64,000 bases of DNA from Saccharofermentans sp. (GTDB lineage: Bacteria > Bacillota > Clostridia > Saccharofermentanales > Saccharofermentanaceae), in assembly GCA_016292215.1 (NCBI GenBank), contig JAEFBB010000002.1, forward strand, positions 53,327 to 117,326, in the 5' to 3' direction. Below, piece after piece: positions 1 through 3,388 of the stretch. Positions within the stretch are counted from its first letter, which is position 1. Every line of letters starts with the position of its first letter. The translations under genes and the position numbers were made by a program. A model generated the notes under the pieces. It saw only the letters and a program-made list of their open reading frames with translations, had not been told where the DNA came from and ran no database searches.

Positions 1-2676
1 GAACCCTCTGCGGTTATAAAGTCCCGTAAGGAAATCCTGTTCGGACAAAAGCTCGCTCGCCTTGTTTTTAGTGATGAGCTTGCGGTTGTTATTGACTGCG
101 TTTACCGCAGCATTAACAAAGAGACTGAACTCTTCAAAACGCTGTTCTGACCTTAAAGATACGCGGTCGTATCCGTTGGCGACATAACCGAATATCTCTT
201 TGCGGGATCTTATCTGTCTGAACAGCAAAACGTTGATATTGCTGTCGGGATCAAGGATCAGATCGTAATCCGGGATCGGATACTTCATGCGGTAGAACTT
301 ATGGGCATTGGAATACTTGTTTCCTCTGCCGTGGAAGATGCTGTGACAGCACTCTTCTTCCTGAGTAATGCCGACGAAGTAATACTGGCTCTTCCACATC
401 CAGATCGAGTTCCTTAAGTTCGCTGCAGCGTCATCGAGATTGTCAGACGAAGTCATGCGCGAAACGAAGTGGCCCATCTCAAGCATATGCCTGAATGAAT
501 TCTGGCTTTCTTCCGTAAGCACTTCAACAGCATTTGACCACGGGAACTGCGAATCCATCCTGCAGCCGCAGGACTGCATAAACAGCGGCTTGTAAGGAAT
601 GGTGAAAGTGTCATTGCATTTATTCTTATACTCTTCCCAGCACTTGATCCTTAAGAGTATCTGCTCAGGTATCTTCTTATAATCGAGCTCGCAAGTCGTA
701 ACTACCGGAGCGTGGAACAATGCCTGCCAGATCCCGTCAAAGCCCGTAACCATTACGTCTTCAGGGACTTTAATGCCCCTCTTGCTTAACGAATCGCAAA
801 CTCCGATCGCCATTGAATCGTTGGCGCAGATGATAGCGTCAGGGATCTCATAACCGTTATCAAGGGCATCGTCTAAGACCTCACCAGCTCTCGCCTGCCA
901 GAAGTCACCGTAGAAGATCCTCGATGAAGAAGGATCTATTCCGCGCTCTTTAAGAACGTCCTTAAATACGTTAAGCCTTGCGTCAGAGAAACGGTTATCC
1001 TTAATGCCTGCCATCATGTCGAGGCGCTTTGCACCGTGGACATCGACAACGTGCTCGACGATCTGTCTGAAGCCGTTCTCATATTCAAAATCAGCGTTGA
1101 TACATCCGTCCAGAGAATGCTGGAACGTGATGACGGGAATGTCTTTTTCGTGCCCTATACTGACCAATCTTTCCAATACTTCAGAAGACTTTATCATCTC
1201 ACTGAAGATGATGATCGCCGCAAGCTCCATGCGCTTCAAAAGATCGGCAAACTCGACCTCCAATTCCGCCTGGAGAGTGCCCGTATTGCTGTCATTGAAA
1301 GTAAAACTCGTGATGACGTAATTCTTTTTAATCTCCTCCGACTGGAGCGATCTTAAGAAGAGACTGTAGTTATCTGAATCGTTCCAGACTCCGCAGACTG
1401 CAATAAGCTTGCGCCTGTTGGTGTTCACCGGTCTCCTCTTTAATGTGATATTCCTGATGTGGATCGAAGCCTTTGAAATGGCTTCGATAGCAAATACTAC
1501 AGATGCCTTGTCACAGTCTTCATCGATCTCGAAAAGCATCCTGTGCCTCTGCCAGTGGCTCTCAAGGCTTACCGTGTAAGGATCTATTATCAGCGTGCCG
1601 TCTTTATCAGATTCAAACTGGCATCTGATGGTACGCGCTTCATCTACTCTTCCGTCAAATGAGAACTCATATGTCTCACCTTTCCTGAAAGGGAATCCGC
1701 CCTGCAAAAGCCTCGTCTCGCCGGAAGTGCCTGATATGAAAGACGGCGTGATGATAAGCTCGTCTTCCATGAAAACGACATTGGCATTGAGGTCGCCTTC
1801 AACAACGTAGAAAGCATTGCTGTCACTGTTCTTTACACTGTCGTCAGTGTTGAGTGTCAGTATCCTTGCAGGTCTTACGACCTGTCTGTCATATCTCTCC
1901 TTCTGATAGACTCTGACATAATCTACGAGCAGTTCGGAATCTTCATCAAAGCTTGTCGGGACCGCCATTCCCGCGCCAAGCTTATTGCCGCCTACTGCAA
2001 CACCGATAACAAGATGGAATGGTTTATTAAACGGTGCGGGATAAGGCTCTTCGGTCTCTCCGCTTCTTTTAAACCAGAAGGAAGTCCTGTAATACTCCTT
2101 GCCGTCGCATGCGAAGATTATCTCATCCTGATCCCACTCGCAGGAGAATAGATGGAAATCACCGGAGAAGTCCGTATTGAGTCTTCTGTAGTTTCCGACA
2201 CGCTGGGTATAAGGATAACCGAATGCAACGCGCGAGACAGCTTCGTCAGCTCTTGCGCCTTCGATCTCGACCATGTCGATCTGACCGTGAAGCGGGAATT
2301 CTTTATACTCTCCGTTCTCTTCATCATAGCCTTCGTCAGGCATCAGTCTGATATAGCTTAAAAGACCCCTGGTCTTAGGGACCTTGATCCTTGCTACTAT
2401 TCTTCCGTATTTAAAATCCTGTCTGCCGAAAGTGCTGATCCTTGCAGAGTAATAACTGGTCGCGCCCGAACGGTCGGTCTCGATCTTAGGCCTTATGCAA
2501 AGACAGCTGTCTTTAAATTCTATGCATTTATCGCCGGAATATTCCTGTCTCTCGCCGTCAATCCATCCGGAAGCACGTGTCTCCGCGCTCCAGACAGAAT
2601 CATTGATATTATTGCTGTTAAAGTCATCGGACCAGGCAACATGATACCCGTCCGGGAGCGAGATCTTATTAATCAT
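1..2676 (-). CDS. Multidomain sensor (partial, runs off left edge): GH16-like domain, CBM-like segment, LacI/Peripla_BP_3-like sensor, GAF-like region, start of GGDEF
   Basis: Manual minus-strand translation from ATG at 2676 (MINKISLPDGYHVAWSDDFNSNNIND...) is open for 892 codons to base 1. GH16-like 'GQIDMVEIEG' and terminal 'YVRVYQ'; PBP-like 'DAIICANDSMAIGVCDSLSKRGIKVPEDVMVTGFDG' and 'SCGCR'; final residues 'SEQDFLTGLYNRRGF' match a GGDEF start. Absent from the ORF track because no stop lies in the window. Confidence 0.9.
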   Translation of the reverse strand, partial: MINKISLPDGYHVAWSDDFNSNNINDSVWSAETRASGWIDGERQEYSGDKCIEFKDSCLCIRPKIETDRSGATSYYSARISTFGRQDFKYGRIVARIKVPKTRGLLSYIRLMPDEGYDEENGEYKEFPLHGQIDMVEIEGARADEAVSRVAFGYPYTQRVGNYRRLNTDFSGDFHLFSCEWDQDEIIFACDGKEYYRTSFWFKRSGETEEPYPAPFNKPFHLVIGVAVGGNKLGAGMAVPTSFDEDSELLVDYVRVYQKERYDRQVVRPARILTLNTDDSVKNSDSNAFYVVEGDLNANVVFMEDELIITPSFISGTSGETRLLQGGFPFRKGETYEFSFDGRVDEARTIRCQFESDKDGTLIIDPYTVSLESHWQRHRMLFEIDEDCDKASVVFAIEAISKASIHIRNITLKRRPVNTNRRKLIAVCGVWNDSDNYSLFLRSLQSEEIKKNYVITSFTFNDSNTGTLQAELEVEFADLLKRMELAAIIIFSEMIKSSEVLERLVSIGHEKDIPVITFQHSLDGCINADFEYENGFRQIVEHVVDVHGAKRLDMMAGIKDNRFSDARLNVFKDVLKERGIDPSSSRIFYGDFWQARAGEVLDDALDNGYEIPDAIICANDSMAIGVCDSLSKRGIKVPEDVMVTGFDGIWQALFHAPVVTTCELDYKKIPEQILLRIKCWEEYKNKCNDTFTIPYKPLFMQSCGCRMDSQFPWSNAVEVLTEESQNSFRHMLEMGHFVSRMTSSDNLDDAAANLRNSIWMWKSQYYFVGITQEEECCHSIFHGRGNKYSNAHKFYRMKYPIPDYDLILDPDSNINVLLFRQIRSRKEIFGYVANGYDRVSLRSEQRFEEFSLFVNAAVNAVNNNRKLITKNKASELLSEQDFLTGLYNRRGF

Positions 2677-2710: not shown

Positions 2711-3388
2711 TTACCTGTCCTCTTTGAATGCATCATCGTCGTTTTCACGGGCCATGATGTACTTGTAGCAGTCATCAGCGCTGACTTCAAATGCCTTGAA
2801 GATATCCTTAACGGAATCATAGATAGCCTTGCATCTGATGATATCTACAGTATCGTGAGCCTGTGAGAAAAGGCCGAAAATAAGCATGTCATACATCTTA
2901 TAGAAGTCGACCTTGAAAGCATCGAATTCATTGATCGCTCTGATGAACAGTTCCTTATTCTCAGGTACATAAGTACGCATAAGGTTAAGAAGATGCATCT
3001 CCTTCTTAACGCATCCGGAAATAGCATTAACGCTGGACTTGATTCCGGGGTTTACTGTTCTTGTGTTATAACGGACGATAGTCATGGAGAGCTCGTCGAC
3101 CATGTCAACGCACTCTTCGATGTGTCTGATCATCTGGAAGATATAGATCCTCTTCTCAGGATCCTGCACACATTCATGAAGCTTGTCTGCTGCAGCGTGG
3201 AAAATGATGTCGCCGTCATTCTCCAGCTTATTGATACGCCTTGAGATCGCTACTCGGTCTTCAATCTTCTCGAGCATGCCCAACAGCTCGATAGTCTCCT
3301 CGTTAAGTACGTCAGACAATTTCGCAGCCTGATCGAATAAGTATTCGCGATCTTCAATGGTCATTGGCCTATCCTCCTTAGAAAACAT
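2711..3388 (-). CDS. DUF47 family (PhoU-like) protein
   Basis: 225 aa helical protein, 'AAKLSDVLNEETIELLGMLEK...HIEECVDMVDELS'. Confidence 0.8.
   Translation of the reverse strand: MFSKEDRPMTIEDREYLFDQAAKLSDVLNEETIELLGMLEKIEDRVAISRRINKLENDGDIIFHAAADKLHECVQDPEKRIYIFQMIRHIEECVDMVDELSMTIVRYNTRTVNPGIKSSVNAISGCVKKEMHLLNLMRTYVPENKELFIRAINEFDAFKVDFYKMYDMLIFGLFSQAHDTVDIIRCKAIYDSVKDIFKAFEVSADDCYKYIMARENDDDAFKEDR

Follow-up and report, generated by a model that had tools for sequence, protein, structure and literature searches.

The first 2676 nucleotides of the window (the whole stretch of 64,000 nucleotides of Saccharofermentans sp. DNA analysed here) encode most of a protein in which a glycoside hydrolase family 16 (GH16) domain, with Gln in the place of the nucleophile Glu, is joined to a sugar-binding sensor domain and a GGDEF domain. 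It appears fairly probable that this GH16 domain descends from a captured laminarinase that was inactivated and repurposed as a regulatory domain of a diguanylate cyclase, with a change of ligand. The evidence lies at the sequence level and consists of lost catalytic and subsite residues, a missing signal peptide, purifying selection and an intact GGDEF signature; at that level, the inactivation of GH16 is judged to be both real and recurrent.

Domain architecture and cellular location

The reading frame occupies positions 1–2676 of the window on the minus strand, as do all the features of this protein described below, and opens with an ATG at 2676–2674; 892 amino acids lie inside the window, and the full fusion gene on the same contig (L001:1060-4176:-) encodes 1038 amino acids. 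In this protein, from a gut-dwelling member of the Saccharofermentans group, the domain order is GH16, CBM4-like, LacI-type sugar-binding domain, linker and GGDEF. The GH16 domain (amino acids 10–260, positions 1897–2649), predicted to be catalytically dead, belongs to the family by both sequence and fold: it matches Pfam PF00722 with 46 bits against a cut-off of 22, and the top Foldseek match of its AF2 model (pLDDT 88) in the PDB is laminarinase 4dfs (E 1e-21, TM 0.76–0.80), with 3azx also among the best laminarinase matches. It is followed by a diverged CBM4-like beta-sandwich (amino acids 265–424, positions 1405–1884) in which, by residue comparison, the binding aromatics are replaced. The CBM_4_9 score of this domain is 16 bits, under the cut-off of 25.9, and that of the relative L026, from clade B as defined below, is 42 bits, over the cut-off; the only PDB entry matched by the window protein's domain is the CBM4 of Thermotoga maritima laminarinase 16A (1gui; E 0.03, and 0.002 for a near ortholog). 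Given the laminarinase matches of the GH16 model, the match of the middle domain to 1gui and the CBM_4_9 score of the relative, the GH16(-CBM4) unit is best traced to a laminarinase.

The next domain (amino acids 428–706, positions 559–1395) is a LacI-type periplasmic-binding-protein-like (PBP) domain without a DNA-binding HTH; it matches PF13377 with 57 bits and, in Foldseek, LacI-family sugar-binding domains including CelR-cellobiose (5ysz). No Pfam match to the N-terminal HTH of the LacI family was found in the window protein, the N-terminus of which is GH16. The alpha-beta linker that follows closes in a long helix (amino acids 707–880, positions 37–558, assigned from the secondary structure that AF2 gives for the near ortholog L095); it had no match in the Pfam search and is GAF-like by appearance only. 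Positions 1–39 hold the start of the GGDEF domain (amino acids 880–1038, the remainder lying beyond the window), which scores 109 bits against PF00990 and retains the RYGGDEF signature, intact also in all 49 fusions compared here; by this domain, the protein is a predicted diguanylate cyclase. The inhibitory RxxD site reads K-D-D-G. The architecture given in the preliminary description, a GH16 domain fused to sensor and GGDEF domains, is supported.

No signal peptide or transmembrane segment was found in any of the 49 fusions by a hydrophobicity scan, used in place of a dedicated predictor, and the N-termini of the standalone GH16 copies resemble lipoprotein signals. A stop codon lies immediately ahead of the ATG of the window protein, for which reason a longer frame that begins further upstream and includes a signal peptide was rejected. 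Because of this stop codon and the absence of a signal peptide, the window protein is very probably cytosolic.

Loss of the nucleophile and remodelling of the cleft

The catalytic motif of the GH16 domain is Q132-I-D-M-V-E137 (positions 2266–2283; the longer H-G-Q-I-D-M-V-E spans 2289–2266), and codon 132 (2283–2281) is CAG. In phmmer alignments the motif lies opposite E-I-D-I-M-E of 4dfs, 3azx and 7wwc and E-I-D-I-A-E of 3iln, so that the Gln codon noticed at the nucleophile position in the preliminary description indeed aligns with the laminarinase Glu. The conservation of this Gln, on which that description made its reading depend, extends to 24 of 24 orthologous fusions, among them the ones found in the isolates AB4001 and YAD3003, and none of the true orthologs carries Glu; the E-x-D-x(x)-E motif of an active GH16 beta-glucanase is accordingly missing from the whole clade. 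A sequencing error or a single-strain oddity at codon 132 is ruled out, Gln being common to 24 species-level genomes. Taken alone, the invariance of Q132 is unremarkable because this clade shows no variation in 82 of the 253 GH16 columns. Its other two motif residues are less constant (17 Q-D-E, five Q-N-E, one Q-D-G and one Q-D-N): the retention of the Asp and of the acid/base Glu, also claimed earlier, holds for the window protein but not throughout the orthologs, where Asn replaces D134 in five and Gly or Asn replaces E137 in two.

The replacements extend well beyond the nucleophile. The window's clade was compared with 80 homologs that have E-D-E at the catalytic motif, and roles from the literature were mapped to its numbering by sequence alignment. 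In the W-x-x-x-W segment of GH16, the two Trp form the -1 platform, and subsite -2 consists of Asn, Arg and Trp (PMC4606783); the active-site His bonds to the catalytic Asp (PMC5595797). The -1 platform Trp, present in 80 of 80 E-D-E homologs, is replaced by R110 (positions 2347–2349) in 24 of 24 orthologs, and the Trp of subsite -2/-3 by F127 (2296–2298), again in all 24 (PMC4606783, PMC5595797). A151 (2224–2226) stands in place of the active-site His, the partner of the catalytic Asp (PMC5595797), a position that is Ala or Val across the clade, and the Asn found in all 80 homologs has given way to G225 (2002–2004), Gly in 24 of 24 orthologs. The subsite Trp residues and the His of an active GH16 are thus lacking (W110R, W127F, H151A). 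The clade has also replaced P107, A108 and, mostly, N40, and retains E42, R79 and H175; E42, R79, D134 and E137 are all present in the window protein. In the CBM4 of the clade, Trp, Tyr, Gln, Arg and Asn residues shared by the lipoproteins and the other GH16-GGDEF fusions designated clade B below are gone, among them a Trp present in 1gui.

The 24-fold conservation of R110, Y108, F127 and G225 points to a new constraint. Because the canonical beta-glucan subsites of GH16 and CBM4 alike are replaced by a new conserved set, the ligand of the GH16-CBM4 part is probably no longer a laminarin-like polysaccharide, and a receptor role for the old GH16 substrate seems rather unlikely. Compared with beta-GRP-like pseudo-GH16 proteins, the domain is likewise GH16-derived and lacks catalytic residues, and its binding residues are largely replaced.

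Fusions, recurrent losses and selection

GH16 was found in 76 of the 85 genomes searched in the genus, and the comparison covered 49 fusions of GH16 with GGDEF and 32 standalone GH16 proteins sampled from the genus. The relatives that carry names are Saccharofermentans sp., Mageeibacillus sp. and two isolates, Ruminococcaceae bacterium AB4001 and YAD3003. All 32 standalone proteins, which are predicted secreted lipoproteins, have E-D-E, compared with five of the 49 fusions (Fisher p 1e-17, without correction for relatedness). The remaining fusions comprise the 24 members of the window's clade with Gln, one each with E-D-R (L080, sister of that clade), T-D-E (L031) and Q-D-C (L082), and 17 with other replacements, one of them E-D-N; ‘clade B' is used here as shorthand for these 17, which the trees do not unite into a single group. 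By parsimony, the nucleophile letter changed nine times in a GH16-domain tree computed without the motif columns and eight times in a tree of the region from PBP to GGDEF. This gives at least eight changes at this position, the exact count being soft, with some branches long and of unsure placement. On either tree, Gln arose independently in the window's clade and in L082. Since L080 keeps the nucleophile Glu but has Arg at the acid/base position, the window's lineage may already have been inactive before Gln arose.

Inactivation has not been accompanied by erosion. Simple Nei-Gojobori dN/dS of GH16 is 0.04–0.08 in close pairs (seven from the window's clade or clade B and one of E-D-E fusions), similar to that of the PBP domain, and the reading frames are uninterrupted in all 49 fusions. 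The low pairwise dN/dS indicates a domain that is maintained rather than decaying, and neutral decay is rejected on this ground. The loss of the nucleophile, the further losses in the cleft and purifying selection together support the earlier interpretation of the domain as a pseudo-glycosidase. Its corollary, that substrate binding is kept and the protein is hence a glycan receptor, finds no support, W110, W127, H151, N225 and the CBM4 aromatics all being replaced.

Among the 49 fusions, the entire cleft that was checked is retained only in L036 (2812-5433:-), a GH16-PBP-GGDEF protein without a signal peptide in which E-D-E, W110, W127, H151 and N225 are intact and which, to judge from these residues, is possibly an active cytosolic enzyme-sensor; W110 is gone from the other four E-D-E fusions. 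The fusion in L082 (1415-4030:-), with its independent Glu-to-Gln change, has no CBM4. GH16 has been dropped in L038, L039 and L040 (ORFs of 776–777 amino acids), which are nested among the GH16 fusions and keep, by eye, a beta-sandwich-like N-terminal stretch ahead of the PBP-GGDEF part. PBP-GGDEF paralogs without GH16 also exist, with open frames of ~726–776 amino acids. Gln at the nucleophile (Q-D-G) also occurs outside any GGDEF fusion, in a GH16 protein from Planctomycetota whose N-terminus resembles that of a lipoprotein (L150:5968-6714:+). Beyond the genus, the fusion was not seen in non-exhaustive scans of 188 genomes of the order, a sample of 391 genomes of the class, the best 78 loci of a collection of named genomes and viral contigs; nor was a GH16/laminarinase-GGDEF or pseudo-glycosidase-GGDEF fusion found in the open-licence literature.

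Locus and genome context

A weak PhoU_div/DUF47 protein is encoded 34 bases upstream of the fusion (window positions 2711–3388, minus strand); its gene precedes the fusion in 22 related loci and is probably co-transcribed with it. The locus is conserved, with PhoU-like, sepF and yggS-like neighbours in ~20 of the 22 named loci of the clade. In most of these (L095–L116), the next gene begins with a LacI-type sensor domain and reaches 769 amino acids in L102; in the window's genome, that gene is not adjacent to the fusion and a convergent PAP2-type gene (by eye) is found there. On the downstream side, the clade-B fusions L123, L125 and L126 adjoin genes that, by eye, are phospholipase-D/cardiolipin-synthase-like and GH5-like cellulase genes.

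Genome-wide, 13 GGDEF and four EAL matches were found; PilZ had no match in the genome, nor did the c-di-GMP-I riboswitch in a search run without a positive control. There is no second GH16 gene in this assembly, which is 92% complete, so the species may do without GH16-mediated beta-glucan degradation of its own; a second, standalone GH16 is present in most fusion-bearing relatives.

Proposed explanation and alternatives

Under the explanation that we favor, a laminarinase-type GH16(-CBM4) unit would have been joined, within one gut-bacterial genus, to a cytosolic diguanylate cyclase with a LacI-type sugar-binding domain, and the GH16 site would then have been inactivated in most of the fusions, the window's included. 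Most likely, the folded and selected module would pass a change induced by a ligand or partner via the linker helix to the GGDEF dimer, tuning the putative synthesis of c-di-GMP. The LacI-type domain, a likelier sugar sensor than the GH16 module, would probably be the direct sensor of a small imported sugar. More tentatively, the fusions may represent a series from enzyme to sensor within one genus, running from cytosolic capture through L036 with its full cleft (perhaps a hydrolase-coupled sensor) to several independent inactivations, a new pocket and ligand in the window's clade and deletion elsewhere.

Binding of beta-glucan in the old cleft of the pseudo-glycosidase, reported to GGDEF, appears unlikely, even though Glu-to-Gln is nearly shape-neutral, E42, R79, D134 and E137 persist in the window protein, clade-B relatives retain the binding aromatics of CBM4, and the insect beta-GRP/GNBP, catalytically dead GH16 relatives, act in glucan recognition (PMC2375007). 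The four cleft residues and the CBM4 aromatics lost in the window's clade weigh against such binding, as does Rv0315, which has similar subsite losses and did not bind laminarin by ITC (PMC4606783), and a cytosolic protein would meet oligosaccharides rather than the polysaccharide. It is rather improbable that GH16-CBM4 is merely a structural or dimerisation element, with all sensing left to the LacI-type domain: the paralogs without GH16 and its removal in three relatives are what one would then expect, but several of the replaced cleft residues are invariant 24-fold and dN/dS is as low as in the PBP domain.

The two remaining alternatives fare worse. That GH16 retains hydrolase activity, through a rearranged catalytic residue or on an altered substrate, is very improbable despite the intact fold, the presence of D134 and E137 and the E-D-E of five related fusions, given that the nucleophile carboxylate is absent from all 24 orthologs, D134 and E137 vary, and the -1 platform and His are lost. 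Hardly any credence is given to decay toward loss without a present function; deletion of GH16 in a nested lineage and drift at the acid/base and Asp positions would fit it, but low dN/dS in every close pair tested and the 49 uninterrupted frames would not.

Relation to known systems and significance

The repurposed laminarinase proposed here shares its fold, motif position and overall alignment with the GH16 laminarinases (3azx and 4dfs of Thermotoga, ZgLamA, ULam111), and a CBM4-like companion (1gui) with T. maritima laminarinase 16A. Unlike those enzymes, it has no nucleophile and no signal peptide, key subsites are replaced, and it is fused to PBP-GGDEF. The closest functional parallel would be the insect beta-GRP/GNBP (PMC2375007), which similarly descend from GH16 beta-1,3-glucanases, have lost the catalytic residues and are used in recognition; these, however, are animal immune receptors without GGDEF, in which glucan binding has been shown for the N-terminal domain. 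Rv0315 of Mycobacterium tuberculosis (PMC4606783) is likewise a bacterial GH16 protein without glucanase activity that has lost subsite residues, but it keeps both catalytic Glu and a signal peptide, lacks a signalling fusion and does not bind laminarin, and so warns against expecting glucan binding of every degenerate GH16. Within the genus, the LacI-type sensor domain-GGDEF proteins share the C-terminal ~615 amino acids (PBP-like domain, linker and GGDEF) but have no GH16-CBM4 module.

The use of dead GH16 glycosidases in recognition is known mainly from animals, and, to our knowledge, little is known of carbohydrate-derived inputs to c-di-GMP in gut bacteria. In this genus, intact, partly dead, fully dead and deleted GH16 occur on one signalling chassis, so that the conversion of an enzyme into a sensor can be put to a direct test, and the proposed role of the fusion would place c-di-GMP under the influence of a cue derived from carbohydrate in these gut bacteria.
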